Origin: Siderastrea radians
Lineage: Eukaryota; Cnidaria; Anthozoa; Scleractinia; Rhizangiidae
Assembly (NCBI GenBank): GCA_964017195.1
Contig: OZ024895.1
Coordinates: 30,177,375 to 30,241,374, forward strand
DNA: 64,000 bases
Reading direction: 5' to 3'
Positions 2,497-61,394 of the stretch are shown here, one piece after another; the first letter of the stretch is position 1; every line of letters begins with the position of its first letter. A program made the position numbers and the translations under genes. A model generated the notes under the pieces. It saw only the letters and a list, made by a program, of their open reading frames with translations, ran no database searches and was not told the origin of the DNA.

Positions 2497-2789
2497 CTGC
2501 GAAGTTAGCCTGCGTAGCAAGCGTTTCCGTAAGGTTTTCCGCACGTTCGAGGCATTTTTCGTTTTTTAGCCGCGCGAAAATTGGGGCGAGCGCAAAAAAG
2601 TGCGTGACGGGGGAGGGGAAGGGAGAGAAGGAAACGCACGCACACCCAATGATTTTGAAAAACCCGTTCGCCCGCGAACGGAGTTTCCTGATTGGCGCGG
2701 CATGGTAGTGTTGATTGCTAAGTGATAAATCCGTCAATCAAATCAGGTATGTTCATTTGAGCGTGACCCGGCGTGATGAACACAACAAA

Positions 2790-3299
2790 ATGACGGAGGA
2801 GTTGTTTGAAGAGTGTTTGGACGATGTTTTGAAAGAGCTGGGCTCCAAGGGATTTGCTTTTACTTTGAAGGCAGAACAACGATTGGCGTTGCGCCATCTT
2901 TTTGATGGCAAAGATGTGTTGGCTGTATTACCCACTGGGTTGGGCAAAAGTTTAATTTTTCAGCTCTTCGTCTTAATGGTCGATGCGAGAAGAAGAATGC
3001 AAGGAGGATCTGGCTTCGCTAGCATTATTGTTATTTCACCCCTTCAGAGTATAATTCGAGACCAAGTAGTCGAGGTCAATTCTATGGGAATGACAGCGTG
3101 TGACTTAAGTGAAAAACTGGGCTGCTTAGAAGAGATACACCAAGGAAAATATAACATCGTCATTTCGTCAGCGGATGCCACGACGGACAAGCGATTTGTC
3201 AACTCTTTGAAACTGAAAGATTCGTTTCCTAATGCAAATTTGGCAGCATGTATTGTGGATGAAAGTCATACAGTCGAAACCTGGACGGGGTTGAGGTAA
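2790..3299 (+). CDS. RecQ-like SF2 helicase, N-terminal exon (truncated)
   Basis: The protein from the ATG at 2790 carries the first SF2 helicase motifs in order: a Q-type lead-in (KAEQRLALRHLFDGKDV), Walker A PTGLGKS, motif Ia VISPLQSIIRDQV and motif II DESHTVETW. RecQ helicases usually have DEAH in motif II; here the alanine is serine, in both copies. The reading frame stops just after GTTGAG|GTAAGC, a good splice donor at 3296, so this is one exon of a longer gene whose remaining exons (the second RecA lobe and beyond) are missing. It could not be an active helicase alone. In the parent transposon it presumably acted on DNA during transposition; that is inference. Confidence 0.8.
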   Translation: MTEELFEECLDDVLKELGSKGFAFTLKAEQRLALRHLFDGKDVLAVLPTGLGKSLIFQLFVLMVDARRRMQGGSGFASIIVISPLQSIIRDQVVEVNSMGMTACDLSEKLGCLEEIHQGKYNIVISSADATTDKRFVNSLKLKDSFPNANLAACIVDESHTVETWTGLR

Positions 3300-3979
3300 G
3301 CTTGTTTGTTTATTATCGAATTCGCGGCCGCTTGCCAATTCTTATTGCACAATTGTCTCACTAATTGTTTGCTCTCCTCGTCTCGGGGAATTCTCGTAGT
3401 CACATTCCCAGACGAATTCACTATAACGACTTTTACCCGAAGTTCCTCACCTGGTGTTAGGTTGTCGATATTCAGGTTTGAGTCCAGAAGATCATTATTG
3501 TCCTGATCCGACGGCTGTGGTATCGCATCAAATCTTAGAGACTTGCGAGAAGCTGTTACGGAATTTACTCGAACAGCCTTGCGACAAGGACTCCTGCCTG
3601 GTGTATTGTCGAGCAGCCGTTTGGACAAGTTCTCAGCAAGCTTCGGCGGAGTTTGGGTAACAGCAGACTGGCTGCCTATTATTGTATTCCGAATAAGTTC
3701 AAATAATGTACCTAAATTCCTAATTTTCCGCACGCAAGGGTTGCAGACACGGTCCAAATGAAGCTGCGAGTTCTCGACAACTTCCACACCAACCGCTCGG
3801 CAAATATCCGCGAGAATTGTCCCAATATAACCACTTCTTTTTGACTCTTTGAATAGGTTTTCTGACGAAATAAAACGCGATTTTCCCGGCTGAGATATAT
3901 TTCCAAATTTCACTCTGAAATTACAGCGACAAATCCTACACCGATCACTTGGTTTTTCGACGTTTTGAGCCTTCGACAT
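3266..3979 (-). CDS. ZAD-like zinc-coordinating protein of the RecQ/ZAD transposon
   Basis: A 237-residue protein starting at the ATG at 3979, just inside the right TIR. Residues 14-17 (CRIC) and a downstream CNPC pair about 65 residues later give the C-x2-C ... C-x2-C spacing of ZAD-like zinc domains, which mediate protein pairing in metazoan zinc-finger factors. The rest is polar and Ser/Thr-rich with no further recognised domain. The 3' end overlaps the last codons of the helicase exon on the other strand, so the two genes converge. A role as DNA-binding or assembly partner of a transposase is inference; the domain call rests on cysteine spacing only. Confidence 0.6.
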   Translation of the reverse strand: MSKAQNVEKPSDRCRICRCNFRVKFGNISQPGKSRFISSENLFKESKRSGYIGTILADICRAVGVEVVENSQLHLDRVCNPCVRKIRNLGTLFELIRNTIIGSQSAVTQTPPKLAENLSKRLLDNTPGRSPCRKAVRVNSVTASRKSLRFDAIPQPSDQDNNDLLDSNLNIDNLTPGEELRVKVVIVNSSGNVTTRIPRDEESKQLVRQLCNKNWQAAANSIINKQAYLNPVQVSTV

Positions 3980-4689
3980 GACACATCTCCGTGCTGAGTG
4001 TTTGGCAGTTCACGGGTTTTATCCACGTGTAGCATGTTTATATTTTGACGGAAGTAATTCTGAAACATCCGGCAGTCTGTTATTCGTTACTTTATTGACA
4101 AGTTGTCACGCTATGAATTCATCCAACTGTGAAGGTGTCAAAGGGGCGTTTTTCAAAATCGTGGGGTTTGCGTGCAAGCGTTTCCTTCTCTCCCTTCCCC
4201 TCCCCCGTCACGCACTTTTTTGCGCTCGCCCCAATTTTCGCGCGGCTAAAAAACGAAAAATGCCTCGAACGTGCGGAAAACCTTACGGAAACGCTTGCTA
4301 CGAAAAATGCCTCGAACGTGCGGAAAACCTTACGGAAACGCTTGCTACGCAGGCTACTGCGAAGTATTAACGTTTTTTTCGATTGGCTTTTTGTCAGTGT
4401 TTTTTTTGGTTCGCTCTTTTCACAGTCTAGTCTCATTTTATAAACACCCCTAAAAGGCTGAATTCTGCGCTCGGCCGTAATCTCCTGGAACGAGTACTGC
4501 TTCTGGTAGCAGTGAGCAGCAAGGAGACGAGGAGAAATCTCAGAAGAAAAGATAACCAGAGGTGGTTAAATTGCTGTGATTAACTGCACCACAATGTTTA
4601 TTATAAAGAATTTTTTCCGCCTTCTATACACTGACGCAAGTGACCTCCGGGAGCATGAACAATTTGGTTTTTATTGACAATTGATGTTA

Positions 4690-10670: not shown

Positions 10671-10676
10671 CGGGAG

Positions 10677-10912
10677 TATGGTGGCCCATCAACGCCATAG
10701 AAAAAATGCAACATAGTAGTGTAATTTTTGAAAGCACACATTTTTATTTTTATTCATTTCATATTATTATTTGTTAGTTTTTATTTTTTTTATATTTATT
10801 TGAAAATTTATCATGAGACAAAATATTCAAAAGATATTTTAAAAAAAAAATTTCCCTCAACGCCATAGACCACAATGCATCGCGAGCAAAGGTATGTATG
10901 ATAGCCCATAAT
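10677..10912 (+). repeat. Left TIR of the alpha-kinase transposon
   Basis: Inverted match to 15310-15545. The outer motif is at 10682-10701 and the truncated inner motif near 10858-10870, with T- and A-rich sequence between. The transposase gene begins shortly inside, so this arm probably also holds its promoter. Confidence 0.85.
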
Positions 10913-11080
10913 CCCCTGTAACGCTTCCTATTTCAAAATGGCCGCTAGAATAAGAAACTCAGAGTGGGAAGACGATATTGAGCTAATGAACGACCCTAAG
11001 GAGAATGTTAGTCGTAACCTGCGACAGTCAGAAATAGTCAGTAGACAGTCAGAAATAGTCAATAGACAGTCAAATATCCG

Positions 11081-13066
11081 ATGTATTCTTGGAGCTTGAG
11101 GACTCTTTCTCGCCGTCTCCATCATTTTGGGATCCGATATACGAACTACTCTGTCGATATAGACGAGGTGAAAGAGGCCGTCGAGAAAGAAATGAAAGGA
11201 CCAGGAAGGTTATTAGGTTACCGCTCACTACACAAGAAGGTTCGAGAAGTTCATGGACTCAGCGTCCCAAGAAACCTGGTGTACGACGTTATGGCGGACG
11301 TAAATCCGGAAGGTCTTGAGGAAAGAGGTGGTGTGGGGATGCCAAAACGTCCCACGAGAACTGGAGCTTTTACCTCAAATGTGAGCAAAAAAATATGTGT
11401 TTCACTTATCTTGTTTCTTCACTGCTTCCTATTCTTGATTTTTTTTTATGCACATACAACTACGTTGAATTCTGCTAACAATCGGTGCGTCGCACTGTTA
11501 TTTCGGGATAGCCTTGTACGTGTAGGTAGGAAATCCATGGCCTCACCCTCTTGATTTATATAGTCTTCTATCACTGAGCAGTGAAGGCGAACTTCTTTTA
11601 ATAAAGATGGAATTTTGATAAAAACTGAAACAAATTTTTACTGGTAAAGGGTCAAAAGAGACAGGTACATCAAAGCCTGCCTACATGTACAATCCCATCT
11701 GGAAGGGAATGGGTCGCATCATCACTTCATGTGCTTACTATTTTTATTTCAGGGATCTGATAGCACCATGTCTCTCGATGGGCATGACAAGCTCTGTGGT
11801 TTCCAGAATTCAATGTTTCCACTTTGCATCTATGGTGCCCAAGACACTTTTAGCAGTAGAATTCAATTCCTGAGAATATGGACATCCAACAGCAACCCCC
11901 ATATCATTGGAAGATTTTATTTTGACTACCTTTTTGAGAGAAGAGGTAATTTGACATCATAAACACATGGATATTATCTTGACAATGATTTCAGGGCACT
12001 GGACGACAAAGTTCTGTTTTATTCCAAGGTAATAGATATTTCACAGAACGGTGATTGTAGAATGCTTTATTTCCTAGTGTTACCTGACAGGATACGTGTG
12101 GACAGAGGAACTGAAACTGGAATCATGGCTACCATCCACAGTTATCTTCGAGCACAATGTGGTGATATGGAAGATGGCACTGATTGTGTGTTGTATGGAC
12201 CTTCAACACAAAATAAGATGGAAAGGTGGTGGAAAGACTTATTGGAGAGAATGGAGAGGTTTTTTAAGAGTCAGTTAAGCACTTTGGTAGAGGATGGTGA
12301 TTATGATGCAAGTGATGATAATGATAGGTATACATTATGCACTGGTATGGTACCATAACTGTTCCACTCATCTTAGGTCCTGTAAGAACATTTGTCTCTT
12401 TTCTCTAACATGGTAACCATTGACATGAGAAACATAAGCTGCCTGGTTATAAGAGTCTCCCTCCGGTAACCAGGGTCACTCACTTCAAAGGTTGGGTAAT
12501 ACTCCTGGCTTGCAAAACTTTTCTCTGTTAAAAAGGCCTAAATTTGTGCCCTCCTTTGACACCTTCATTATTTTTGTATGTTTTATTCAGAGGCTAAACT
12601 TGACTGATCAAGCTGACAAAGAAGTGTCTTTGTAATGACAACAAAAGAAAAGGCTGTTTTTACTATGTACTGATCTCTTGATATTTTCTGACCGGTGTTC
12701 TTTTTTAGGAAGATCCTCGCTTATGTCTATATCCCAGTGATCCAAAAGGAGCTTGACGTGTTTCGGTGTTCTGTTTGGAATGCCCACAGAATACGAAAAC
12801 AAAAGAAGAAGGAACTTCCTGTAGGTGTTCCAGATCACATTTATACCTGCCCAGAGAGGCATGGTGGGGAAAAGTGGGGTTTTGCAGTAACAGAGGAGCA
12901 GCTGAGAGAGGTTGCTGAATTCGCAAATGTTCTCGATGGTACTGATGACTATCTACCTGAAGATTTTAGACAAGAATGCCAAAGACTTTTGCCCAACACT
13001 GAGGATGTTGAGCCAGCCCAAGCAGCCAATGCATTTTTGTATCTGAAAGCTAATTTTAGCTTGTAG
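11081..13066 (+). CDS. DDE transposase with integrase-like core (five exons)
   Basis: Exons 11081-11380, 11753-11945, 11995-12028, 12091-12327 and 12709-13066 join in frame with GT-AG sites (for example TCAAAT|GTGAGC and ATTTCAG|GGATCT). Exon 1 has an N-terminal helical region with GPGRLLGYRSLHKKV. Exon 2 has SLDGHDKL, the first catalytic Asp. Exon 4 has RVDRGTET (second Asp) and QNKMERWW (Glu, 39 residues later). Exon 5 has a C-terminal domain with a HRIRKQKKKELPVGVPDH block. This layout matches the integrase-core transposases common in cnidarian and fish genomes. It would act in the nucleus, cutting and joining the element ends. No frameshift or stop was seen. The 34-bp exon 3 and the ATG at 11081 are the least certain parts; a start at 10938 is out of frame. 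Confidence 0.85.
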
Positions 13067-13331
13067 ACAAGTACATAATTTGCAGCTCACAGAAGAAGTT
13101 GTGATAAATGAACATCAGAAGAGTGACACAACTTCCAAAGTTTTAATGTTGGAAATCCCATATGTTTATCAAAAATATAAATGAAGATAAATGCATTGAT
13201 TGCAGTACCGGTAACAAGTATCATTGATTTGAAAATTTTACTACAGAAATATTTCTATAAAATGTTATTCTGAAACAGAAAAATTATTAGAAAAATTATG
13301 ACAAGTGTTCTTGAATTATCACTTTGTATAT

Positions 13332-13337
13332 AATAAA
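13332..13337 (+). terminator. Poly(A) signal AATAAA for the transposase gene
   Basis: AATAAA about 265 bp after the stop codon, within AT-rich 3' sequence. A second AATAAA-like site lies near 13373. Confidence 0.45.
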
Positions 13338-14009
13338 CATGATAAATTATCATTATTTGAATAACAATCTTGAATAAACAGTTGATAAATCACATAAATT
13401 ATTGAAGGCAATAAAAATCTCATGGCACCATAAAAGACAACTCATAACTCAACTTATACACAGATTGGCCTTTACATGGTACTTTTGGAACCACATGTGT
13501 CTGATTACTAGCTTTTACCATTCAGAAATACTTAACATTGTTGCATGTGGAGGCGAAGATTATAAACATTCTCAAAAAATTGTGGATTGTTCTGGAGATT
13601 TACTGTTTATATTGACCCTGATGAACAATCCCCATGCTTATGGTATACCAAAACATAACTGAACAATCTAAGGACAACCAAAACTCATCAACTCAACTGT
13701 TATGTACACTGCAACTAAACTGTGCTATTCACCTGTTAATTGGTTGGGATTTGACATTTTTTACCAAAATAGGTCAAAAGCCCCACCCCTGAGACAACAA
13801 CAACTTTCAAGTCACCCACCCTGGAGCAACTCTTTGATTGGCTCAAGTCCCACCCCTTAAGTCCACCCTCTCCCCCACATTGTTAGGTGCACCGATATTG
13901 ACAAAAAAACATTTACATGATAGTGTACTTAGTTTAGCCAGCTTATTTAATTTGTTGCAATTAATGTTCAATGCTGTATTGTAATATTTTGTTGTTCCAC
14001 TTTTCTTCA

Positions 14010-15225
14010 CTAAGGAGGTGGTAACTTTAACAGTTGACAAAATTTGTTACAGTTGTGTTCCCGAAAGAAAGTGTCAATTGCAGTCTTTGACAGGTTTCCA
14101 CAACAGAATAAAATCGAACTGTCAATTTCATCCATCAGCTTTGCACTTGCGATTTCAGGATCGCACAGCCAGTAGTTAACACCCTGAATGTCAGATACTA
14201 TGAGCTGCTGGTTGGAGTTTACATAAGTAAAATTCACAAAAGCTTCAGCTTTTAGGCTTATTTCACTGGTACCATCGCCACAAATTTCACCCGTGTTGTT
14301 TATGTACTTCTCGAATGTTCCTTCGATAAAGTCCTCGAGAGTCACAAATTCCCCGTTGAAAGATGAGTAGTACACCTTTGAATACGTAAAAGTCGCTCCA
14401 TACTCCAAAATTGTCCTTTCCAGATCTAAGTTCTGCGCAAAGTTACGGGCCAACGCATTCATCTGAATCACTTTCCTTGTATGCGCTTCCGTTGTTCCAA
14501 ATAGCTCTTTAATTTCATTGACTTTATCTTCTTTATATCTCTTAAGGACATATTTCCCCTTGGCTATCCCACTAATGGCCTTTGCCAGGCATGCATTGCG
14601 AAACCCTCCACTGGCGAAGCTTTTCCGTTCCAGAGAAAAGGTTGTTTGGAAAGGCTCCAGCCACCTCATTTCCGCTAAAGAAAATTCTTCCAGCGAAAGC
14701 GTTACAATGTCAACTTCCGGTACGATTAACTTACCTAGTTTTAGCATCTGGCTAAGCGGAACAGATGCTGCAATTGAAGATTTGGCAATTTTAGGCCTAC
14801 TCTCTTTTGCCATTGAGCCACATGCATCCTTGGCCGGCTCACTCTGTCGTTGAAGTGGCAGACTTGGCGACTTCTCGATAAATCTGATGTGAATCACTTT
14901 CCACTTTTGTATTTGGCTAGCATCAGTGAAAGAAGGACCTCGTTCTCCAGCCAGAACATCGCATTCAAGATTTTTTTCTACCAAAATGTGCTTTGCATGC
15001 GGCTTTGATGTTTGGCAAAGTGGCTTCTTCTTCCAAGGGAACAAGAGTTAAAGCACCGATTCGAGAATACTTTTGGCACTTGCCTTCTACGTTCGGAGAC
15101 AGTCTTTGGACGGTAATGCTCCCGCACAGCCCACTTGGACCAGCCTCGTCCTTTTTCTTTCCGGTCCTTTTCTTCGATATTTTCTCCTTGTAATCCTCCC
15201 ATTCACGTTTTCGCTTTGACATCAT
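14010..15225 (-). CDS. Alpha-kinase (MHCK/EF2K type) cargo gene, one frameshift
   Basis: Reading leftward from an ATG near 15225, about 85 codons (basic, Lys-rich) are followed after a 1-nt shift in a seven-A run near 14975 by 330 codons to the stop at 14010. The second part holds atypical alpha-kinase landmarks: glycine loop FASGGFRNACLAK, lysine strand GKYVLKRY, DFIEGTFEKYINN, catalytic loop VSDIQGVNYWLCDPE, and a C-terminal zinc tail GNLSKTAIDTFFREHNCNKF with the H-x-C-x3-C pattern. The His usual before the FTY motif in this family is Asn (EAFVNFTY). Alpha-kinases phosphorylate Ser/Thr, for example on myosin heavy chains or eEF2. The substrate here is unknown. The frameshift may be real or an assembly error in the A run. 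Confidence 0.85.
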
Positions 15226-15309
15226 TGATTAAAGTGTCTGTTTACATGTGATTAGAATAATGATAAAGCGAATAAACTCGAGCACGTGCGCGTGGGGAAA
15301 TACCACAAT

Positions 15310-15545
15310 ATTACGTAATTCCCAAACTGCATTGTGGTCTATGGCGTTGCTGGGCCACAGAGGGAATTTTTTTTTTTTTAATATCTTTTGAATATTTTGT
15401 CTCATGATATATTTTCAAATAAACATAAAAAAAAAATATAAAAACTAACAAATAATAATATGAAATGAATAAAAATAAAAATGTGTGCTTTCAAAAATTA
15501 CACTACTATGTTGCATTTTTTCTATGGCGTTGATGGGCCACCATA
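15310..15545 (-). repeat. Right TIR of the alpha-kinase transposon
   Basis: Reverse complement of the left arm. It keeps the full inner motif (near 15338-15360) and outer motif (15522-15541). The alpha-kinase ATG lies about 85 bp inside. Confidence 0.85.
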
Positions 15546-15553
15546 CGGGAGTT

Positions 15554-16983
15554 CTGTACAGCGCCGCAAATGATCCCGAGACCGCAAATGATCCCCGACC
15601 GTAAATGATCCCCAAATAGGACCGCAAATGATCCTAGAATCGCACGTGATCCCCACTGCGGACCGCAAATGATCCCGCTAAATAATAGGAATAGAGTGGA
15701 TAACAGAACGGCGAGGACATTGTAAAGGCGTGGACTCTGGAATGGCGTGGACAGAGGCATGGTGATGTCTACGGAATAATGTGGATACTGGAGCTTTTGT
15801 CTTTATTATTCCTCAATGCACGTCTTAGCCCCATAAATCATGACTTAGATATTTTATTTCGAGGCCAAAAAAAAAAATAAATAAATAAATAAATAAAATA
15901 CTACTAGGTAATGTAGTCCTACAAATTCGCAATTGTTTTTGTACCTTTGGCTTAGCATGCAGGTTGTAAATATGCCTGGTTTAATTGGTGTATTTTCTTT
16001 ACGATCTTTTAACAGAATAACAGATTGAATGCTTTCTTATACATGGACAAGTAGTACGAGCGCTAGTCACGAGAAAATTTGCAACCGCTCATGTTAACTG
16101 ATTTTACCAGCCAGCTACAAATATATATATTTCTTTATCTCGAGCGGGTTAACTTTTCCTTTCTAGAGCAATGCTCAGTGAAAAAATCAATGGGTTCGCT
16201 TCAACACTCAATTTTACAATATAGAATACTTTTCTGATTTCTCAGGTGGGTATAACCAGCTGAATGCAACAAGTTATGCACATTTGACAGGTTGCGCGAC
16301 AACTCAAATCGTTACCTATAAAAGGCATCGGCTGCCAAGGATAACACCGGCGGGATTTCCGCCACACGCACAAAAGACAAGATCTAAACCTAGCTCGGTT
16401 TTCTTATCACTTTCATTTTCAGGTCTTTGTCCCCTCCACCAGCATTAACGCCAACAAAAACCGCCAATGAAAGGACGAGAGTATTCAAATTGGAGACCAG
16501 TTTAGCAATTTCTACAAGCGCGATCGCAAGCGAACAGGACACTGCCTTAATACATGGTCTAGTGACCTTCTCACACATTGTTTAGTGACCTTTGATTTCA
16601 AAGCCAGACGAAACTGTCGCGGTCTCGGTCGACCATCGGTCGGTCATCCATGCGATCTGTGTATACATGTGAATTTAAACTATATTTTTTAAACATAATC
16701 ATGTTTGCTATCTATGCCACTGTGGCCTTTAAAATGTTTTATTTCACTGATCTCCATAAACAACAAATTTTTCTGTTTTTTTATTTATTTTGGTCAGTAC
16801 TTTCACCTTCCGGTATTTTCACCTTCACTGAAACTCCACCCCATTCCAATTTTTTTCAGCGGGATCATTTGCGGTCCGTTGTGGGGATCATTTGTGGTCC
16901 TGGGATCATTTGCGGTCCAATTTGGGGATCATTTGCGGTCGGGGATCATTTGCGGTCTCGGGATCATTGGCGGCGCTGTACAG
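15554..16983. mobile_element. Non-autonomous element with GATCATTTGCGG-repeat TIRs
   Basis: Both ends begin CTGTACAGCGCCGC (itself starting with the palindrome CTGTACAG), and the TIRs run about 140 bp. Each arm has six spaced copies of CCGCAAATGATCCC or close variants. The target duplication is unresolved (TT on both sides). The interior, 15,700-16,840, has an (AAAT)n tract near 15,880 and no recognised gene. The left end sits 2 bp from the right target duplication of the alpha-kinase transposon, so one element inserted at the edge of the other. Confidence 0.8.
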
Positions 16984-17332
16984 TTCACCCTTAAAGTCCT
17001 GATATAAAAAGGCATATTCTCCTTACTGCTTTCCATATATTTGTTGTGGAACTATAATGAGAATTTGGTGATTAATTCTTTTATTCTCAACACTTGAATG
17101 TTTAAACAAGTAGTGACAATGAGAAGAGAAATTTCATTTGCGTCACGTTAGGGCTTAATTTCGTGGATTGACGACTTTTGTGTTTTCCCCGCAAATTTTC
17201 TCGAATTTGTGTCCTAATCCCAGACTTAACCTACGGAAGTCGCGCAGTCTTCTGTCCAGTGTTTGACGAATGAAACTTGCCACGCCGGGCCAGCATGAGG
17301 CCTGAAGCGGCACTCTAGGAATAACTTTTATT

Positions 17333-20611: not shown

Positions 20612-22745
20612 ATGACGCAAGCAGACCTTGCAACGAGACTTTCTGACAAAGTTTGTACAGTCGAATATTCACATGACTCTTAAGCTTGAGAAGCCTTTTT
20701 GCTTATTGGTGAACTCCTTAAATATGGTTTAGCTGGGACATAAATTTCTTGCACCATGTTAAAACTTTCTTGTAGCTGGCTTCTGTCACGAATCTTTTAC
20801 GGTGATTCCCTGACGACAAATGAAGGTGGCTTTTGCTGCGAATCTTTGCGGCAGTTCTGTCGCGAATCTTTTACGGTGAATGCCTTACGACAACTGACAA
20901 TGGCTTTTGCTGCGAATCTTTGCGGCAGTTCTATCGCGAATCTTTTACGGTGAATGCTTTACGACAACAGACGATGGCTTTTGCTGCGAATCTTTGCGGC
21001 AGTTCTGTCGCGAATCTTTTACGGTGAATGCTTTACGACAACAGACGATGGCTTTTGCTGCGAATCTTTGCGGCAGTTCTGTCTCGAATCTTTTACGGTG
21101 AATGCCTTACGACAACAGACGATGGCTTTTGCTGCGAATCTTTGCGGCAGTTCTGTCGCGAATCTTTTACGGTGAATGCCTTACGACAACTGACAATGGC
21201 TTTTGCTGCGAATCTTTGCAGCGGTTCTATCGCGAATCTTTTACGGTGAATGCTTTACGACAACTGACGATGGCTTTTGCTGCGAATCTTTGCTGCAGTT
21301 CTGTCGCGAATCTTTTACGGTGAATGCTTTACGACAACAGACGATGGCTTTTGCTGCGAATCTTTGCTGCAGTTCTGTCTCGAATATTTTACGGTGAATG
21401 CCTGACGACAACAGACGATGGCTTTTGCTGCGAATCTTTGCGGCAGTTCTGTCGCGAATCATTTACGGTGAATGCCTGACGACAAATGACGATGGCTTTT
21501 GCTGCGAATCTTTGCGGCAGTTCTGCCGCGAATCTTTTACAGTGAATGCCTTACGACAACTGACAATGACGCAAGCAGACCTTGCAGCAAGACTTTCGGA
21601 CAAAGTTTGTACAGTCGAATATTCACGTGACTCTTAAGCTTGAGAAGCCTTTTTGCTTATTGGTGAACACCTTAAATATGGTTTAGCTGGGACATAAATC
21701 TTTTAGCACCATGTTAAAACTTTCTTGTGGCTGGCGTCTGTCGCGAATCTTTTACGGTGATTGCCTGACGACAAATGACGATGGCTTTTGCTGCGAATCT
21801 TTGCGGCAGATCTGTCGCGAACCTTTTACGGTGATTGCCTGACGACAAATGACGATGGCTTTTGCTGCGAATCTTTGCGGCAGTTCTGTCGCGAATCTTT
21901 TACGGTGAATGCCTGACGACAAATGACGATGGCTTTTGCTGCGAATCTTTGCGGCAGTTCTGTCGCGAATCTTTTACGGTGAATGCCTGACGACAAATGA
22001 CGATGGCTTTTGCTGCGAATCTTTGCGGCAGTTCTGTCGCGAATCTTTTACGGTGAATGCCTTACGACAATTGACAATGGCTTTTGCTGCGAATCTTTGC
22101 GGCAGTTCTGTCGCGAATCTTTTACGGTGAGTGCCTTACGACAACTGACAATGACGCAAGCAGACCTTGCAACGAGACTTTCGGACAAAGTCTGTACAGT
22201 CGAATATTCACGTGACTCTTAAGCTTGAGAAGCCTTTTTGCTTATTGGTGAACACCTTAAATATGGTTTAGCTGGGACATAAATCTTTTAGCACCATGTT
22301 AAAACTTTCTTGTGGCTGGCGTCTGTCGCGAATCTTTTACGGTGAATGCCTGACGACAAATGACGATGGCTTTTGCTGCGAATCTTTGCGGCAGTTCTGT
22401 CGTGAATCTTTTACAGTGAATGCCTTACGACAACTGACAATGGCTTTTGCTGCGAATCTTTGCGGCAGTTCTGTCGCGAATCTTTTACGGTGAATGCTTT
22501 ACGACAACTGACAATGGCTTTTGCTGCGAATCTTTGCGGCAGTTCTGTCGCGAATCTTTTACGGTGAATGCCTTACGACAACAGACAATGGCTTTTGCTG
22601 CGAATCTTTGCGGCAGTTCTGTCGCGAATCTTTTACGGTGAATGCCTTACGACAACTGACAATGGCTTTTGCTGCGAATCTTTGCGGCAGTTCTGTCGCG
22701 AATCCTTTACGGTGAATGCCTTACGACAACTGACGATGGCTTTTT
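20612..22745 (+). repeat. 74-bp satellite in three higher-order blocks
   Basis: The 74-bp unit starts ATGGCTTTTGCTGCGAATCT and contains two GCGAATCTTT cores 24 bp apart. Three blocks start near 20612, 21566 and 22147. Each opens with a header of about 210 bp (ACGCAAGCAGACCTTGCA... through a CTTATTGGTGAAC segment), followed by roughly 10, 5 and 5 units. Because 74 is not a multiple of three, open frames of 64-79 codons recur in all three phases; these are not genes. The array ends about 137 bp before the ATG of the winged-helix/chromodomain gene, so it may be a promoter or subterminal binding array of the same element. Confidence 0.9.
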
Positions 22746-25043
22746 CCGCGAAAGTTGCTTCTTTGTCTTTTTGTTGTGAAACGGTTTGTGTACCTTAAAT
22801 TATTGCTCCACTAGTTGATTGATCTTGTTAAGCACTTAACTAACATCTGTTTGTTTTGGTTTAGATTTATTTGGAAATAATCATGACAGACTCTGGCCAA
22901 CCAAAGCCTAGTGAGAGCTTTGGAAATGAGTAAGTCGGGAGTGATTTTAATGTTTTATAAGATAAAGAAAAGTTTTGGAAAACGTTTTAAAATACCACTT
23001 TTTCAAAGAAGTTCCCGGGTAGAACATCAGATTACGATTAACTTTTCCAAAGTGGAATCTAGAAAAATATAGTTACGACATTGTTGACTGATCTGACCTG
23101 CAAGTGTATCGTCTTAATAATTCTTTTTTTTTTTGTTACAGAGGTGATGGAAGAGATTCTTCAGTGCCCAAAATAACCAGCTCACAGAAATTTAAGGTAA
23201 TTCTGTTTCTTTTATCCCCATAACCTACACGATGTGAACATTCACAAAAACAATTGTCCAACAAAAACTAAGCTCCACTGCAAAATCAACCATACCAAAA
23301 AGTGCAACAAAAAATTAGAATTGCACTCGCTTGATGATCGTTTCTTTATCATAGATATGTGTTTAAACCACTGACTTTTTGTCTTTACTATAATGTATCG
23401 CATTTTTTTATTGCAAGTACTAAAGTAACTGTTGTTTTAGGTGGGAGATGTGGAACGCTGGTTGGCGGACTGCTTGACCGAAGTGGAAGGCAATGGTGAC
23501 ACGATTTCAAAGGAAGAACTGTGGGGAAGCTTCTTCACGTACATGAACGTGGACTCCACGGTGGGCAGAGAAACTTTTTTTTCTTGTCTCGGTATTGCAC
23601 TAACAAACACAGGTTACCATAGAGTTACACCCGTGTTTAAAAAGGGGCGTCACTTAGGCTACAAGGGGCTCGCTTTTAAGGCTAACGGTAGTTCATTTCA
23701 ATCGGATACGCCCACTCATGCGACAGCAGCAAAGAATACCCAGGGCACGCTTAATATCGAAATGGTCCAACAGTGGATGGAGAGGTGCTATTGCGGGGGA
23801 GGCAAAGACGATCTCATTGCGAAGGATGAAATTTGGCTGAACTTTAAGAAGGACTCGCAAATGGAAGATGACAACAGGTCCACTTTTTTCACCCTTCTTG
23901 GAAAATGCGTTTTAACCATCCTCCATTTTCGAAAGTAAAACGCTTGAAAAAGGAAGGAAAGGTGTCGCTCTACCAACATTTGCGAAACAGGTCCCTGGAG
24001 GAACCACCAGCACAGGCAGTTAATGAAGTGGATCTGTTGGATAATTTAGTCGAATAAAGCACTCCCAATTTCGATGGTAATGAAACACCCCAGTCAAATA
24101 CATCTGAGACCTCTGATGGAGATAATGGTATTGTGGAACATCCTAGTCAACCAGAGAGAGGAGACGACTTAGAATCTGACACATCTGAAAAGTCTGAAGA
24201 GGATCATGGCCTAGTAAGACAGCATGCTAAGAAGAAAAGAAAAGTTGATACTGATGATGAAGAAATTGCTATAGTGAACGATGTGCCCGAGGAAAGTACT
24301 CCCTCATTCAATGGCAATTATAAACCCCAGTCAAGGATATCTGAGACCTCTGATGGAGATAGTGGTACTATCGAACATCCTAGGCGGCCAGAGAGAGGAG
24401 AAGACTTAGAATCTGACCCATCTGAAACATCTGATGAGGATGGTGGTCCAGTAAGACGTCCTGTTGAATCCGATGATGAGGAAATCGCTAGGGACAACGA
24501 CGTGCCTAATTTTCTTACGGATACCGGCACAGCTTCAGGGGAGTGTGAGGATACGGTGGATGAAAATATTGAAGACGTAATGGAGGTACGTTTACCGCCC
24601 AGCGGAAGTTGCAACGCATCCTCTATCGATTTGGAAGCAGAGCGTATCTTCAAGAAGTTCCACAAACGCGTGGATCACTTACTCCCATCTCATCTTCCTG
24701 GTAAACCGTCATCTTTCCAAGCATTCCTTACATCTGTGTTCCCTGATCCGTCAAATTCCGTTGTGGAAAGAGCAAACATACATGCTTCATCGGCCAAAGC
24801 GTCTACCTACAAAGATAATCGTACTAGAGCTCTTCTAGCGGCGACCTTTCCACCAATAAGGGTTGGAAGTCTTGCTGGTGAGGCTACCGACGTATCGTTT
24901 CAAGGTGATGTCTTTCCACAGTTTACGCATATTGCAAAGGGGAATTACAAATGTGCCATCTGTGTCCCATACTTACGCTGGGCCATTCAGAATAATCAAC
25001 CACACTCAGTCGCGCGATCAAGGAAGGCAACAACCGATGCAAT

Positions 25044-26486: not shown

Positions 26487-26624
26487 ATGCAATATTGGAG
26501 GCATTGATTTTCCTGGCCTGGTGCAAGTACAGGAGCACAGCGTCTCCAAGTGCCACCTCGAAGCTTGCGAATTCTGGAAAAGGGATAAAGAGCCTACCAC
26601 AAAGCCCTTGCCCAAGAAGGAATT

Positions 26625-29600
26625 TTGCAAGAAGAGAAAGACCATGGACGACTACGTGGTGAAGCCATCGAAGCCTTTAAACTACTAATGACCTCAGAGT
26701 CTCAACTTCAGAGCTCTCAAAAGAAGAACGTGAGGTGTTATTACCTCTGGGACTCTGAGGTCGTTAAAGAATTCGCCAACGATGTGCAAATACGGAGAAG
26801 GACTCCCAAGAACCTCTTTCAAGAACGGCTGAAGAATGGAGTCATACGATGTCACAAAGATTATCCTGATCACTTTCAGTGCTGTAACTATAAAGAGTGG
26901 AAAGTCAGGCATGCTGTGGAAGCCGCCGATCTCAAACAAGAAGCACAATCCAATGGAAGATCTTTGTACATTGCACTCTCAAAGGATGTCCTGGTTAACG
27001 GCAAGGTTGTGGACATAAGAGGAGGGATTAAAAGCCTACAACCACCGCGTCAAGAGGAAGCACTGTCATACGGTAAACATCCCCTTACCTGTGAAAATTG
27101 TTTCCGTCAGCTGCGCGAGCTAAAAGATATCATTCAGCATCGAAAATCGGGGAGTCTTTATACAAAAACTAACCGACTTGGGCTTTCTGAATTCAATAAA
27201 CGCTACGCCAGGAGGGGCGAGGCCGTCGACGCATTAGAAATCGAGACTCACAAGCGTAAACAATCTGAAGCAAAAATGAAGCAATTGGTCAGAGCAACGC
27301 TGACTCCAAAAGAGTGGGAGGATAGTTTACATGCTGCATGCCTCAACGGAGAAGATCAGAGGCTTGTTATTAGTCTTGTCCGTTTACTAAGAATGGGTAT
27401 ATCGGAACGCAGTCCCATGCAGATGCTGGTCATTCGAAATTTGGTGTCCAAGCTTCAGAAAGCCAACAATCATCATTACGTTGATTTAGTGAAAGATATC
27501 AGTGGTCTCTTTAAAAACGAACTTGGTCCCACCAATTATTCTCTTCTGGCTGACATATTTGGTCTCGCAAAGGAAACTACGGCTGCAAAGCATTCTTCCC
27601 AGATAAGAATCGATCCCGGGATAGACGTGACGGCGTTGGATATGGCAGCAGAAACTTTTAGAGGTCTTCCCGTTAATGAGAGTAGTGATGGTGCAAGGTG
27701 CCTTCGCTTCCTTGAACCAAGAAAACTGCAAAACGGAGAGGTCGTCTTAGTTGGGCAAGTTTGGGATCCGGATGTCAGCACATGGCATGATCAAACCCTG
27801 CGTGTTCCGAGAAGAGACGAGAAAAAGAACGATCCAGACGACTTCACTGCACTGAAAAGGCTAACGGACGAATTTATCGAGAGAGATAAATTGGCGAAAA
27901 GTGTTTCTGTGCACAATCTCACTGCTATCGCGTCACTGAACAAGCCGACGATAATAAATTGTATGTGGCCGAACCCTGATCGTGGCTACCAAGCAAAACA
28001 TCTTCTGGAATACTGGGCAGCTCTCAGGAGAGCTTGCTATTATGATCAATCGAGAGATATACGTAAAACGCCAATTAATTTAATAGGCTACTCTACCGAT
28101 TCTGCAGGGTTTTCTTTGGCGGCAGCAATTCAATTGATGACTCCAACAGAGGAGGAAATTAAGGAAGGGATCCAGTATTTAGCCCTTGGTATTGATGACG
28201 AAGAGTTTGCGTCTCCCTACTATTGGCATCTTCCATCAATAGCGTACTTGGACTACGACCACGAACAGAGGTTGTTCCTGAAAAATTTGAAGTACGAGAC
28301 ACGTGAATTAACTTTCTGGGAAGACGATCGGAAGTCAACGCGGATTGCAACTATCCGGCACCTCCAAGATCTCAAACATAAATGCCAAGAGTTGGGCTTG
28401 GATTGTGGATTCAACACCTCTGATCTGCTGCTGGTTTATTTCTTTGACCAGAACTCAGACGCCTGCGAAAGGTTGTTCACAATCCGTATAGTCGACCTCC
28501 TCGACGAGCATGTTCCTGGTTCCGACGGCACTAGTCTTTACATAAGGGTTGTTTATTATTTAATACAGCCTTTTAGAGTACCAGATTTTGGTTCACCCGA
28601 GGACGTACAGAAATTAGTCTCCTATGCCATCACGATATTTCGTTTGTTGAAGAAAGTCCTCGAACTGAGAAAGTTTGGCCTTCATTCGAAACCTGGTGCC
28701 AAAAATAATCCGGCTAGGAGGGGAAAATTCGTTACATATGGGTGTTACAGGACAGCTGAGATCCTTTTTGCGGCTGCCACGATTCACCAACTGGCAATGT
28801 TTCTACATTTTAGGGACCTTGGACCCGGGTGGGCTTCCCCATACAATTCTGGTACGAAAACCACCGAAAGAATCATTGGAGAAATGCAAGGGAAAACAAC
28901 AGAACTTCAAAACCTTGACTCCCAGCCTACGTTTGGAAATATGCTAGAGAGGTGTTCCAAGGTCCAGTTTAAACTAAATGCAAAGCAACGCCTTGCATCT
29001 GCTGGGGCCAGCGTGAAAGCATCCAGTAAAAGAAAGAACATGGCTTTTGCTTTCAAGGAAAAGAAATACATCAGCAACTACACGTATCCTAAAGATTACC
29101 ATAGTTTTAGAGCAGCGCAGGTCAGGGCTCACCAAGAAGGAGTCAAAAAAGGACAGTCCCTTTTTGCAAAATACATGCCAGAACAATGTGTTCATCTGTT
29201 AAAGGAGACTTGGAACTGGGACACGCCATATAAGTATCCTAAACCAACTGGATACAAAGTCGTCGATGGCCATCTTCCCATGGATTTTAACAAGTTGAGC
29301 AAATCGTTTAAATACGCCTCCTTGGAAGATCTAGAATCGCACTGCAGTGGTGACAAAGAGGAAGTTGAATCATACGGAAATGATGACGATGATAAAACGG
29401 CTGACAACAAGGAAAATGACGGCGAAGACCGCGGGGGACAAGAAGACACAGACGCAGAGGAAGAAAATGGAGACACTGACACAGGTGGACGCAAGTGGAA
29501 GGTCAGCAGGTACACTAATGGGAGATTGACCTACCTCCACATAAAGCAGGCCTTGAAACTCCTATTACCACGAGAGTATATATCCCGCAGTCGCCATAGA

Positions 29601-30578
29601 AGGCACTGGGCGTCCAAGTATCTTCCGGGAAAAGAACCTGTCAACCCAGAACACGACATCTTCAAATACTGCGACGTCGCACTAAGAGTCACGCAAGATG
29701 GGAAAGGCAGATATCAGATTGGACGAGTAGAAGCTATGGAATCCACAAAGGATGGTTCGGAAGTCACAAGCTTCCAACTAAAGAGCAAGGCCTCTGTGCG
29801 AATTCGATGTTCGTTGTACTCTCGGGACGAAAGTGATGTCTATTTCGTTTCTGAAGACGTTCTTCTTACGAACTGGAAGTCCCAATCCAGTATTATTGGA
29901 ACGGTGGATATACAACCAGTACCCGGAAAACGTAGCAGGTACACTCTTTATCCAGCATCCAAGGAAAGCCTGCTGAGACTTGGAATTTTTCCTTACGATG
30001 CCAATAATCCACATCCAGTTGCTGAGGATGATTCTCAAGGGTGCACTAGCTCCGGAAAGGACGATGAATTTTACGAAGTAGAGGAGGTAATTGGGAGACG
30101 TCTTTCAAAAGATGTACTCTGTTATGAGTACAAAGTCCGGTTTAAAGGTTATGGGTCAGAAGAAGACATGTGGCTCCCCGCGTCCTTCTTTAACAGACCA
30201 ATTCAATTTGAGCCTACATCCAAGTTTGGAAGAAAAAGAAAACATACCCTCGACCCTGAAAACGTCATAGAGGACAATAAGAGAGGGAGGCGCTCTGGGA
30301 GTGACCACGGTGGACCAAACGCCCTTGAATCCGGCAACAGGCTAAATCGATCAAAGAAAATGAAAACCAAACGCGAAAAAACTGCTGCAGTGGCATCAGA
30401 TGAACTCAAAAGGTCGGTTTTATCAAATGAAACCAGTGTTCCGCTTACGAATAGAAGAAAAACATCTGGGCTATGCAAAGACAAGGGAAAGTTGTTCCGA
30501 TCATCTCTTGACGCAAATACAAGCCCATGCACCAATGGTGCCAAGGAACCTTTGTCAATTGCCAAAGAAAGTGACTGA
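26625..30578 (+). CDS. Intact 3' open frame: unclassified core plus chromodomain
   Basis: This is the uninterrupted 1,317-codon remainder of the broken gene; the TTG at 26625 is not a true start. In order: a Cys pair HPLTCENCFRQL (about residue 150); a helical region; a core with IGYSTDSAGFSLAA, AYLDYDHEQR and GTKTTERIIGEM, whose acidic residues could form a distant DDE triad (inference); an acidic Asp/Glu tract (about 905-950); and a chromodomain (about 1147-1195: FYEVEEVIGRR, YKVRFKGYG, MWLPASFF). Basic nuclear-signal-like clusters follow (GRKRKH, KKMKTKREK). Chromodomains bind methylated histone tails, and several retroelement integrases use one to steer insertion. The same could hold here. 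The superfamily is not recognised. Confidence 0.78.
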   Translation: MQEEKDHGRLRGEAIEAFKLLMTSESQLQSSQKKNVRCYYLWDSEVVKEFANDVQIRRRTPKNLFQERLKNGVIRCHKDYPDHFQCCNYKEWKVRHAVEAADLKQEAQSNGRSLYIALSKDVLVNGKVVDIRGGIKSLQPPRQEEALSYGKHPLTCENCFRQLRELKDIIQHRKSGSLYTKTNRLGLSEFNKRYARRGEAVDALEIETHKRKQSEAKMKQLVRATLTPKEWEDSLHAACLNGEDQRLVISLVRLLRMGISERSPMQMLVIRNLVSKLQKANNHHYVDLVKDISGLFKNELGPTNYSLLADIFGLAKETTAAKHSSQIRIDPGIDVTALDMAAETFRGLPVNESSDGARCLRFLEPRKLQNGEVVLVGQVWDPDVSTWHDQTLRVPRRDEKKNDPDDFTALKRLTDEFIERDKLAKSVSVHNLTAIASLNKPTIINCMWPNPDRGYQAKHLLEYWAALRRACYYDQSRDIRKTPINLIGYSTDSAGFSLAAAIQLMTPTEEEIKEGIQYLALGIDDEEFASPYYWHLPSIAYLDYDHEQRLFLKNLKYETRELTFWEDDRKSTRIATIRHLQDLKHKCQELGLDCGFNTSDLLLVYFFDQNSDACERLFTIRIVDLLDEHVPGSDGTSLYIRVVYYLIQPFRVPDFGSPEDVQKLVSYAITIFRLLKKVLELRKFGLHSKPGAKNNPARRGKFVTYGCYRTAEILFAAATIHQLAMFLHFRDLGPGWASPYNSGTKTTERIIGEMQGKTTELQNLDSQPTFGNMLERCSKVQFKLNAKQRLASAGASVKASSKRKNMAFAFKEKKYISNYTYPKDYHSFRAAQVRAHQEGVKKGQSLFAKYMPEQCVHLLKETWNWDTPYKYPKPTGYKVVDGHLPMDFNKLSKSFKYASLEDLESHCSGDKEEVESYGNDDDDKTADNKENDGEDRGGQEDTDAEEENGDTDTGGRKWKVSRYTNGRLTYLHIKQALKLLLPREYISRSRHRRHWASKYLPGKEPVNPEHDIFKYCDVALRVTQDGKGRYQIGRVEAMESTKDGSEVTSFQLKSKASVRIRCSLYSRDESDVYFVSEDVLLTNWKSQSSIIGTVDIQPVPGKRSRYTLYPASKESLLRLGIFPYDANNPHPVAEDDSQGCTSSGKDDEFYEVEEVIGRRLSKDVLCYEYKVRFKGYGSEEDMWLPASFFNRPIQFEPTSKFGRKRKHTLDPENVIEDNKRGRRSGSDHGGPNALESGNRLNRSKKMKTKREKTAAVASDELKRSVLSNETSVPLTNRRKTSGLCKDKGKLFRSSLDANTSPCTNGAKEPLSIAKESD

Positions 30579-35871: not shown

Positions 35872-36053
35872 ACTTGTGAAATCATCTAAAACATACCAAA
35901 GTGTTGCGAACTTATTACCGTCGCTTGCATCTAAGCGTGAACACGTGACGCTGAAACATGATCTAATTGGGTATAAACATGGCATGTTTGGTCGTCAAAC
36001 GTTTGAAGTTTAGCAGACCGTAACGGCAAGTTTCACTGAAGTTTGCGCTCAAA

Positions 36054-37097
36054 ATGTTCACGATAAACAAGTACGGGCGAAACTTTAAACCTGGTGTGCC
36101 CCTGAGTAGGGACTTGAGAAATGAAGCCATAGAGTTGGCCGCCGAATTTCCGATACGCGAGGTTGGCAGAAGATTGTGTATTCAGCCTTCAACTGTGTCA
36201 AGATACGCAAAACTCTATCGTGAAAAAGGAAACATTGACCCAGCTCAAAGAACACACAAGCGAACGGCAAGCAAACTATCACTGGCTGACTCCATTTTAT
36301 TGGAAACTATTGTAGAAAGCGAAGGATCGACATCTCTCAACGAAATGCAATCTCAGTTAAGTAATTTTGGTCATTGCGGAGAAATTTCAATTTCAACTAT
36401 ATCAAGACATGTTCGGAAGAAACTTCCCAGTACAAAACAGTATTCACGCAAACGAATGGGAAAATGTGCGGGTGAAAGGTTTACCCATGAAAACCTTGTG
36501 TATACACAACTTTACTTAGATTACTTAGCAGACAAAGATCCTTCTGCAGTTAAATTTTTTGATGAAACAGGCTTTCAACTGCCGGACAGCGGACATAGAG
36601 TTTACGGTTACTCTCCTGTTGGGGAACCTTGTGTTGACATGCGACGTTATTTGTCTACCGCCAACTTAACTCTCAATTTTTTGGCCGGTATTGATGGAGT
36701 TAAGTACGCAAATACTGTTCAAGGTGCGTCGAACTCTATTGAATTTTTAAGGTTTTTCACGGAAGCGTCAGAAACACTTGATCCAAACACTGCAAGACCA
36801 GTTTTGGAGGTCGGGGATATAATTGTCGTTGACAATTTTGCCGCCCATCATGGAGATGCTGAACGGGCTCTTCGCAGTTTTTTCGACGATTTAGGAATGG
36901 AACTCTTGTATTTACCTGCTTATTCTCCCGATTTTAATCCCGACGAGGAAGTGTTTTCGAAGCTAAAGTATCTTTTGAAGTACCGCTATGAAGATATTGT
37001 ATTTGATAATTTGGAATATGCCGTTTGGTGCGCAGTTGGTGATTTGGAGGCGGCCGACATGTACGGATATTACCGCCATGCTGGATATTTGATTTAA
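36054..37097 (+). CDS. DD37E transposase (IS630/Tc1/mariner type)
   Basis: A 347-residue intact protein starting at the first ATG inside the TIR. Residues 20-60 form a helix-turn-helix (IREVGRRLCIQPSTVSRYAK), with a second helical DNA-binding segment to about residue 130. The catalytic core shows KFFDETGFQL (first Asp), IIVVDNFAAHHG (second Asp) and PDFNPDEEVFSKLKYLL (Glu, 37 residues after the second Asp). This is the DDE_3/IS630-type fold, and length and motif order fit a full enzyme. It would cut the element out and insert it at TA. An AATAAA lies at about 37352. The single exon with no lesion means the copy could still be active. Confidence 0.93.
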   Translation: MFTINKYGRNFKPGVPLSRDLRNEAIELAAEFPIREVGRRLCIQPSTVSRYAKLYREKGNIDPAQRTHKRTASKLSLADSILLETIVESEGSTSLNEMQSQLSNFGHCGEISISTISRHVRKKLPSTKQYSRKRMGKCAGERFTHENLVYTQLYLDYLADKDPSAVKFFDETGFQLPDSGHRVYGYSPVGEPCVDMRRYLSTANLTLNFLAGIDGVKYANTVQGASNSIEFLRFFTEASETLDPNTARPVLEVGDIIVVDNFAAHHGDAERALRSFFDDLGMELLYLPAYSPDFNPDEEVFSKLKYLLKYRYEDIVFDNLEYAVWCAVGDLEAADMYGYYRHAGYLI

Positions 37098-44149: not shown

Positions 44150-46410
44150 ATGGAATCCAACAAAAGAAAGGAATTTACTCCAAAGAAAGAAGAGAAATTT
44201 GTCAACAAGAAGAGGCCCGTGGAAGATGTCATTGTATTGTCTGACGATGACGAGCTTGTGGAGAACGGTGATATGAGACACGCACACGTACGATCTTTAA
44301 AGTCAGAATTAAATGCAGTAGACTGGTCTGACGATGTTGCCGATTCTTCACAGGAAAAGTCCTGACATTCAGGAGATTGTGAAAATATGCATGTTTGGTC
44401 CAGGTGAAGGAAAACTAGCTCTTCAAAAGCCTCTAAGGGTAAAGGAAACTGCTACTTTTGTAGTAAATCAAGAAACAATTGGCTTGAAACACCCAAATGA
44501 CTTGGACGCCGACGACATAGCAGTAGCATTTTTGAAAAAGGACAGCGTCCGTTTTTACGAGATAATCGATGACAATGAGGACAAGGACACTTTGGAAATG
44601 AGTAGTGAAGTACACGTCACCCGTGACAGCGAAGGCAAAGTGGTATCGGGTTCATATAATGTTAGATCCAATAAGGGATGGAAAGCTGAAACCGCTGACA
44701 TGAAGAACGTCTATGCTATCATTCGTCGGAGAGCAGTGCACAAGAAGACCCAGATAGAAGGAGGTTCATTCACCAGAGTAATAATGTTCCTTATGCCTGT
44801 AAGCGAGTACAATTTGGTTTATGGCAGACTGAAAGATCTGCCAATTTTCAAACTAATCAACCCATTCATCATCGTGCACTACAGTTTAAGTGCTGGCATC
44901 CAGTCTGATGACGTTCACGGTAACACTCATGGAAATGCTAAGGAGGGTTCGACTGCCACGGAATTCAGACCTAGGGAGCACTCCTTCAAAGTGGAGTGCA
45001 GAACCAAGACAGCGATGGACACAAGAGCCCCGAGAATAATTGCACAAGAGTCTTCCGAGAAAAATGATGTGCTTGATTCTGAAACCGACTACTCCAGTAT
45101 TAGAGACTCGAAGCAGATAACAAATTATAGGTAGGTTGGAGCGTCTGCTTACTTGAATAACCCTCCCTCCCCTCTTCTGTGTTCACTTGAGGTTGTCATT
45201 TTTGACCACCTTAAGCGAAAGTTGTCCATCAGTTTAGAAATCGGGCAGGGAAATGTAAGCGATTAGTCTGTAGATGTCCCCCCGTTCATTTATTTATTTA
45301 TTTATTTATTTATTTATTCATTTTTTTCCATTTCTGTTTTTTCATGTGCTCTGAAGATGTATACATCCTACATATGCGATATTGTCTTCAGGCGACCTCA
45401 CTGAAAATTCCGTCTGTACTATCGTATGATAACTCGCCATAATTATAATCACTTTTAAGGTGCTTAAATGAAATCTATCTTACGACTTCTGTTTTTGCCT
45501 TGCCTTTTATATGCTGTGGCGGATCAAGAATTTCGAACGTCGCCGGGCACACAGCAGCAAAGGGGACCGGGTTAAAAATAATCTTCAGTACTAGCCGTGA
45601 CGTCAGATCTTAACTGCTCACGGCCTGTATGGATTTTAAAGCTTTTGTCTCTTTTTGCAGATACAACTACGCTGAACCAAGAGGTAAAAGAGGTGACGAT
45701 CTAAAGGACGTCATAATGCAGCTTCTCAGTCAAAGCACCGAACGAAGTCCCTACATCTTGGACAAATCACAACCTTACAAACAAGAGTTCTCACTGCGTT
45801 CCAGTAATCAGCCTTCTGTGGTCGCATACCTCAATCAGACATTAAAGGACCTCGAAAGGTCGAAAAAACCAGCCCTCTTGTTGTGGACACAACATTCAAC
45901 ATAAGTGAAGTTTACTACACACAAACAGCGTATATGAACTTGAGCCTTGTTTCAAAGAAGAGTGACACGCATCCGTGGTTCCCAGGACCCATGCTGGTTC
46001 ACCGTAGCAAAACCGAAGAAGAATTCCGGTTCTTCTGGAAATCCGTCAAGCGCGAAAGTCCTGCACTTGAAATGCTTAGCATCCTCGGAACCGATGAGGA
46101 GGCAGCCGTTTATAACGGCATTTAGCCTGCGTAGCAAGCGTTTCCGTAAGGTTTTCCGCACGTTCGAGGCATTTTTCGTTTTTTAGCCGCGCGAAAATTG
46201 GGGCGAGCGCAAAAAAGTGCGTGACGGGGGAGGGGAAAGGAGAGAAGGAAACGCTTGCACGCAAACCCCACGATTTTGAAAAACCCGTTCGCCCACGAAC
46301 GGAGTTTCCTGATTGGCGCGGCATGGTAGTGTTGATTGCTAAGTGATAAATCCGTCAATCAAATCAGGTATGTTCATTTGAGCGTGACCCGGCGTGATGA
46401 ACACAACAAA

Positions 46411-46918
46411 ATGACGGAGGAGTTGTTTAAAGAGTGTTTGGACGATGTTTTGAAAGAGCTGGGCTCCAAGGGATTTGCTTTTACTTCGAAGGCAGAACAA
46501 CGATTGGCGTTGCGCCATCTTTTTGGTGGCAAAGATGTGTTGGCTGTATTACCCACTGGGTTCGGCAAAAGTTTAATTTTTCAGCTCTTCGTCTTAATGG
46601 TCGATGCGAGAAGAAGAAGGCAAGGAGGATCTGGCTTCGCTAGCATTATTGTTATTTCACCCCTTCAGAGTATAATTCGAGACCAAGTAGTCGAGGTCAA
46701 TTCTATGGGAATGACAGCGTGTGACAAGTGAAAAACTGGGCTGCTTAGAAGAGATACACCAAGGAAAATATAACATCGTCTATTCGTCAGCGGATGCCGC
46801 GACGGACAAGCGATTTGTCAACTCTTTGAAACTGAAAGATTCGTTTTTTAATGCAAATTTGGCAGCATGTATTGTGGATGAAAGTCATACAGTCGAAACC
46901 TGGACGGGGTTGAGGTAA
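46411..46918 (+). pseudogene. RecQ-like helicase exon, copy B, frameshifted
   Basis: Same exon as at 2790-3299, with Walker A PTGFGKS and DESHTVETW. A 2-bp deletion after GCGTGTGAC (near 46725) shifts the frame, ending the first part in ACDK. The second part resumes at SEKLGCLEE and ends before the GTAAGC donor. Truncated like copy A. Confidence 0.85.
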
Positions 46919-47598
46919 GCTTGTTTGTTTATTATCGAATTCGCGGCCGCTTGCCAATTCTTATTGCACAATTGTCTCACCAATTGTTTGCTCTCCTCGT
47001 CTCGGGGAATTCTCGTAGTCACATTCCCAGACGAATTCACTATAACGACTTTTACCCGAAGTTCCTCACCTGGTGTTAGGTTGTCGATATTCAGGTTTGA
47101 GTCTAGAAGATCACTTTTGTCCTGATCCGACGGCTGTGGTATCGCATCAAATCTTAGAGACTTGCGAGAAGCTGTTACGGAATTTACTCGAACAGTCTTG
47201 CGACAAGGACTCCTGCCTGGTGTATTGTCGAGCAGCCGTTTGGACAAGTTCTCAGCAAGCTTCGGCGGAGTTTGGGTAACAGCAGACTGGCTGCCTATTA
47301 TTGTATTCCGAATAACTTCAAATAATGTACCTAAATTCCTAATTTTCCGCGCGCAAGGGTTGCAGACACGGTCCAAATGAAGCTGCGAGTTCTCGACAAC
47401 TTCCACACCAACCGCTCGGCAAATATCCGCGAGAATTGTCCCAATATAACCACTTCTTTTTGACTCTTTGAATAGGTTTTCTGACGAAATAAAACGCGAT
47501 TTTCCTGGCTGAGATATATTTCCAAATTTCACTCTGAAATTACAGCGACAAATCCTACTCCGATCACTTGGTTTTTCGACGTTTTGAGCCTTCGACAG
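46885..47598 (-). pseudogene. ZAD-like protein, copy B, start codon and a zinc Cys lost
   Basis: Homologue of 3266-3979. The ATG has become CTG (47596-47598), and the first zinc Cys is Ser (DRSRICR against DRCRICR), so the domain is probably dead. The remaining frame stays open to the stop, with a few substitutions against copy A. Confidence 0.8.
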
Positions 47599-61300: not shown

Positions 61301-61394
61301 ACCAGTGCTAAGAGAAATATTTAAAGACCCTCCCATCCTTTCGTACAGAAAAGGGAGGTCATTAAAGGATATACTCGTTAGAGCAAAACTTTGA
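58328..61394 (+). pseudogene. Penelope-like reverse transcriptase, copy 2, broken
   Basis: Same protein as copy 1. It is interrupted by a MITE after DALT (58588), which brings an immediate TAG. A 1-bp deletion near 59483 (copy 1 ACAAAATAAAGAAG, here ACAAAATAAGAAG) shifts the frame at QNK. From 59505 the remaining 629 codons, including all RT motifs (SMDVTSLYTNI, HGTAMGTKV, YIDDIF), are open to the shared stop. Confidence 0.9.
58592..59276. mobile_element. Tourist-like MITE inside Penelope copy 2
   Basis: The ends GGGTGTGTTTCTTTGGGAAA and, inverted, GGGTGCGTTTCTTTGGGAAA form TIRs of about 40 bp. TTA precedes and TAA follows the element. The empty site in copy 1 reads CTCTAACTAAGTTTCAC, so a 3-bp TWA duplication with one change is likely. 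Repeats of AATCCGNNNNNGGATT fill the subterminal parts. The ends and target resemble PIF/Harbinger MITEs. The open frame at 58594-58788 has no known domain. Confidence 0.82.

Follow-up and report, generated by a model that had tools for sequence, protein, structure and literature searches.

Why should a cut-and-paste DNA transposon carry a gene for a protein kinase, and is that gene a working part of the element or a passenger? The question arises at positions 10677-15545 of a 64-kb window (the whole stretch of 64,000 nt that was analysed) from the genome of the coral Siderastrea radians. There the earlier note, made from the letters alone, had proposed a DNA transposon with an alpha-kinase as its second gene, and its parts were confirmed: target duplications, inverted ends, a DDE transposase with introns, and an alpha-kinase gene convergent with it. 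The element is a two-gene cut-and-paste transposon that fits the IS3EU superfamily. It belongs to a young subfamily, one of many in a large population, and this copy of it is damaged. In that population the alpha-kinase is a standing second gene; it lies tail-to-tail with the transposase, and purifying selection has preserved it between subfamilies.

Linkage of the two genes was assessed in the whole genome (804.8 Mb, 439 contigs), where a search with the kinase protein P0001 gave at least 103 kinase matches. The best 20 of these loci outside the window subfamily, ranked by E-value alone, were taken at 10 kb each. An IS3EU transposase was present in 18 of the 20 and convergent with the kinase in all 18, being only partial in L017, L026 and L029; the sole background control for this count is the 64-kb window, where none of 26 transposase matches fell outside the element. 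At 11 of the 18 linked loci a 6-bp target-site duplication (TSD) and matching 24-nt ends starting TATGGTG were found, a count made without a null comparison; the two second-best candidates of this search were of low complexity. The 20 loci are not all independent (eight belong to one subfamily and five or six to another, and L019 and L020, 44 kb apart, have identical kinases), and the convergent pairing recurs in at least six diverged subfamilies of this genome. The same pairing was found in other anthozoans through indirect recognition of shared contigs. That the linkage is a standing feature is close to certain. It is scarcely credible that the kinases are an independent host gene family with IS3EU insertions nearby by chance: the automatic gene names of their relatives (TRPM6, eEF2K, myosin heavy chain kinase) would suit such a family, but a match to the transposase is present at 18 of 20 kinase loci and nowhere in the window outside the element, and the kinase lies inside boundaries set by terminal inverted repeats (TIRs) and TSDs, which rule this reading out.

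Selection was examined on 15 stop-free kinase frames, namely those of 14 of the 20 best loci and of copy C1 of the window subfamily. Between subfamilies 76-90% of synonymous sites had changed versus 31-44% of nonsynonymous sites, synonymous change being saturated, so that no ratio of nonsynonymous to synonymous rates (dN/dS) is given at this distance; copies inside one subfamily were 98-100% identical. Judged by these site counts, the kinase protein is clearly constrained between subfamilies. All nine catalytic and zinc residues were retained in 190 of 202 kinase relatives; the roles of the Lys, Glu, Asp, Gln and Asp and of the zinc-binding His2Cys2 set are those of alpha-kinase structures. 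Kinase and transposase identities were correlated over nine linked pairs (r = 0.859; 14 of 20,000 shuffles), comprising five from S. radians, two from Exaiptasia, one from Dendronephthya and one from a EukProt species; the outside pairs were linked indirectly, the EukProt pair through neighbouring gene numbers.

These results bear on captured host cargo with no role for the element, a reading that the earlier note had left open. In its favour, the kinase is broken in the window copy and three other copies of its subfamily, within which changes look neutral. Linkage at 18 of 20 loci, constraint between subfamilies and co-divergence contradict a one-off capture and largely rule it out. Also against it are the retained active site, recurrence across the diverged subfamilies and (indirectly) other anthozoans, and the same pairing published for fungal IS3EU (PMC12730594). 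We consider cargo very improbable.

Other observations weigh against a kinase maintained for the element. Its frame is broken in 4/5 copies of the window subfamily, where private changes number 11 synonymous and 23 nonsynonymous (p = 0.44 versus neutral). Two of the 20 kinase loci (L025 and L028, both decayed, with several stops) have no transposase in reach, and an earlier Mantel test, which covered five pairs (four being outside ones) whose identities spanned a narrow range, gave r = -0.30, a value reached or exceeded in 89 of 120 permutations. Private transposase changes in the subfamily were 7 synonymous and 12 nonsynonymous (p = 0.30). Change after insertion is thus indistinguishable from neutral decay, and pairwise kinase dN/dS inside the subfamily (0.21 to 3.09) is uninformative. 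The idea that a kinase evolving neutrally in all copies would mark a passenger therefore divides by scale: change is neutral-like within the young subfamily and constrained between subfamilies.

Searching the genome with the left end of the element gave 13 matches, which resolved into five full-length elements (window included), one unpaired end and one match that was short and weak. Both genes are present in all five, which are mutually 98.6-99.0% identical and each 0.5-0.8% from the majority sequence. Direct 6-bp duplications differ among copies (C1, CAAATC; C3, CATGTC; C10b, GTCCTG), so the other copies with different duplications and both genes that the earlier note had suggested looking for do exist, as do the 11 loci outside the subfamily. 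The fifth copy, C10a (L012, C10:39059800-39066800), lacks a direct duplication: its flanks are inverted copies of each other, exact over 54 nt, and an insertion interrupts its right end. Members lacking the kinase, which the note had named as evidence for a passenger, are represented by the lone end L011, which has no gene inside, while the full-length copies all keep the kinase. C1 has an open kinase frame with a protein identical to P0001 and C3 an open transposase frame (408 aa); no copy with both genes open was found among the five. L016-L023 form a second subfamily of eight near-identical loci, whose stop-free kinases (7/7 examined) and transposases without in-frame stops in the matched parts (6/6) suggest that it may have been recently active. 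No copy was confirmed in viral_contigs, whether the search used the kinase, the transposase or a TIR pattern, or in genome_contigs.

In the window copy itself neither gene is intact. The 5' transposase exon is out of frame after a 21-bp tandem duplication that none of the other four copies has, and the kinase frame breaks at a place with 4 extra nt relative to C1. A zinc-ligand His, a role known from alpha-kinase structures, is replaced by Asn in the window copy, whereas the remaining 4 of the 5 copies keep it. With these three lesions the window copy is very probably not autonomous. Coordinates are collected in the table.

Table. Features of the transposon in window coordinates.
Feature	Position	Strand	Basis or remark
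Target-site duplication CGGGAG, left	10671..10676	.	Perfect 6-bp direct repeat
Left TIR, starts TATGGTGGCCC...	10677..10880	+	End alignment and further genome matches
Transposase exon 1, 5' part (MAARIRNSEWEDD...)	10938..11064	+	Out of frame with the remainder in the window copy
Transposase exon 1, remainder, helix-turn-helix (HTH)-like N-terminal part	11066..11380	+	Comparison with P0121 and copies
Transposase exon 2, first catalytic Asp (SLDGHDK)	11753..11945	+	Comparison with P0121
Transposase exon 3, second Asp (RVDRGTE) and Glu (NKMERWW)	12078..12327	+	Comparison with P0121
Transposase exon 4, C-terminus and stop	12709..13066	+	Profile and copy comparison
Alpha-kinase gene, intronless, convergent with transposase	14010..15225	-	Pfam match; frame break near 14970-14981
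Right TIR	15328..15545	-	End alignment
Target-site duplication CGGGAG, right	15546..15551	.	Perfect 6-bp direct repeat

The perfect 6-bp duplications reported by the earlier note were recovered, as were long inverted ends, which share the start TATGGTGGCCCATCAACGCCATAG and are 90.8% identical across 218 alignment columns (left 204 nt, right 218 nt), slightly shorter than the roughly 235 bp first given; the element termini are TATGG..CCATA. The transposase has four exons with catalytic spacing D-63-D-39-E, and all three introns have GT..AG borders in 5/5 copies. An Acropora millepora gene model (P0121) is 88% identical to the joined transposase, has all three junctions at the same places, and matches the Pfam rva_4 integrase core (PF24764) above its cut-off (E = 6.4e-19), the match of the window pieces being below it; the predicted spliced DDE transposase is borne out. 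The same holds for the convergent minus-strand kinase, which matched Pfam Alpha_kinase (PF02816) at E = 4.6e-34 and 118.6 bits (curated cut-off 21.3) in a hidden Markov model search. About 0.94 kb separates the stops of the two genes, and the gap (13067-14009) contains no long open frame, the longest stop-to-stop frame wholly inside being 94 aa. Rfam and tRNA scans of the 64-kb window gave no match. Inverted repeats rich in CCGCAAATGATCC were seen at 15554-15692 and 16852-16993; the first arm begins 2-3 bp beyond the right target duplication, which places the transposon at the edge of another repeat.

What might the kinase do? Its layout is a basic N-terminus, a putative beta-grasp domain and then the alpha-kinase domain. 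The middle domain is probably a PB1/ubiquitin-like beta-grasp: P0001 residues ~35-116 are modelled with the strand and helix order E-E-H-E-E, and fold matches were to PB1, LC3/ubiquitin and CIDE-N. Tempering this assignment, those matches are weak (best E 0.037), and no credible match to the domain was found in Pfam (E up to 10) or among PDB sequences. Against a library of viral structures the domain gave CIDE-N, weakly (E 0.029); the kinase model gave nothing there at E 0.001, and the VIA-align structural rows spanned the kinase domain only. PB1-type domains bring kinases to partners. The basic tail suggests a nuclear location, and the constant pairing a function tied to transposition. A possible course of events, to which we give an even chance at most, is that the kinase would enter the nucleus, bind a partner through the beta-grasp domain and add phosphate to the transposase or to the element's chromatin, by which transposition would be switched on or silencing avoided.

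Since the two genes have long been inherited together, the kinase probably helps the element to move or to escape silencing. Its substrate might instead be host histones or silencing proteins and never the transposase, in which case it would act purely against silencing or on the host; we hold this to be a serious but less likely alternative. The basic tail would suit it, as would two published precedents, each available in part: a TET/JBP dioxygenase in some fungal IS3EU, proposed as a means of methylation escape (PMC12730594), and phosphorylation of H3S10 by nuclear TRPM7 kinase fragments (PMC8128914), which sets a precedent for chromatin as substrate. The tight co-divergence of kinase and transposase also fits a direct partnership, but shared descent alone could yield it. 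We slightly prefer the transposase over chromatin as substrate. Taken whole, a standing kinase gene acting as a nuclear helper of transposition or of silencing avoidance is the explanation we favour, with moderate confidence. A wider version, in which IS3EU is an ancient, kinase-dependent two-component machine of fungi and animals, whose self-encoded beta-grasp alpha-kinase licenses transposase or chromatin and to which TET and other genes were added in some lineages, is put forward tentatively, at a little short of even chances.

A selected kinase as a standing transposon part would mean that the element brings a phosphorylation switch of its own. To the element kinase family belong several gene models of anthozoans and tunicates that bear the names TRPM6, eEF2K or myosin heavy chain kinase, some of them adjoining an IS3EU transposase (by indirect recognition); kinase counts in such genomes are therefore likely to be inflated by transposons.

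Elsewhere in the window, an inverted repeat (53396-55578 and 59276-61457; 1981 and 208 nt at 100% complementarity, arms ~3.7-4.1 kb apart) has in each arm an open frame with an RVT_1 (reverse transcriptase) match and is either a recent inverted duplication or an assembly effect. Two element copies at 2505-4302 and 46114-47928, 98% or more identical, have inverted ends of ~120-130 nt and a DEAD/RecQ-like helicase frame. Also present are a 74-bp tandem repeat array in three blocks (20708-22843), an open frame of 1329 aa (26589-30575) that has a chromodomain close to the C-terminus, and a Tc1/mariner-like transposase (36024-37094), whose open frame of 357 aa contains DDE_3 and HTH_23.

Placement of the element in the IS3EU superfamily is close to certain on its sequence features. 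IS3EU is described with 6-bp duplications and TA..TA termini (PMC10045372) and, in rust fungi, with termini TAYGG..CCRTA (PMC12730594). The coral copies have 6-bp TSDs (window, C1, C3 and C10b, plus 11 of 18 further loci), termini of that form with TIRs of ~204-218 nt (those of IS3EU exceed 30 bp), and an IS3/IS481-like DDE transposase (PF24764 via P0121; D-63-D-39-E). No description of an animal IS3EU with an alpha-kinase was found in the literature searched, which excluded Repbase reports and subscription journals, and evidence for a lasting kinase-transposase partnership was not met there. In the text available of the IS3EU/GingerRoot paper (PMC10045372), whose elements share the TA..TA termini, 6-bp TSD and transposase type, the word "kinase" is absent. 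The pairing is nonetheless already known in fungi, so the earlier note's impression that it was undescribed does not hold. As far as the accessible part of PMC12730594 (Kojima 2025) goes, all TET-bearing IS3EU families of rust fungi and truffle have transposase and alpha-kinase oppositely oriented, like the window element and its other copies, with the same TSD length and termini; they differ in host kingdom and in having a TET/JBP gene in the interval between these genes, where the coral element has no long frame. Intons, the multi-gene fungal descendants of IS3EU noted in a 2012 meeting report (Kapitonov, PMC3520738, available in part), share this descent, with five to six proteins reported, including extra conserved ones gained from hosts, versus two genes in the coral. 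TRPM7, MHCK-A and eEF2K have the same alpha-kinase fold with its Lys, Glu, Asp, Gln and zinc residues, whereas the element kinase has a different N-terminal partner domain and is encoded by a transposon. The coral element is thus an animal member of a pairing known from fungi.
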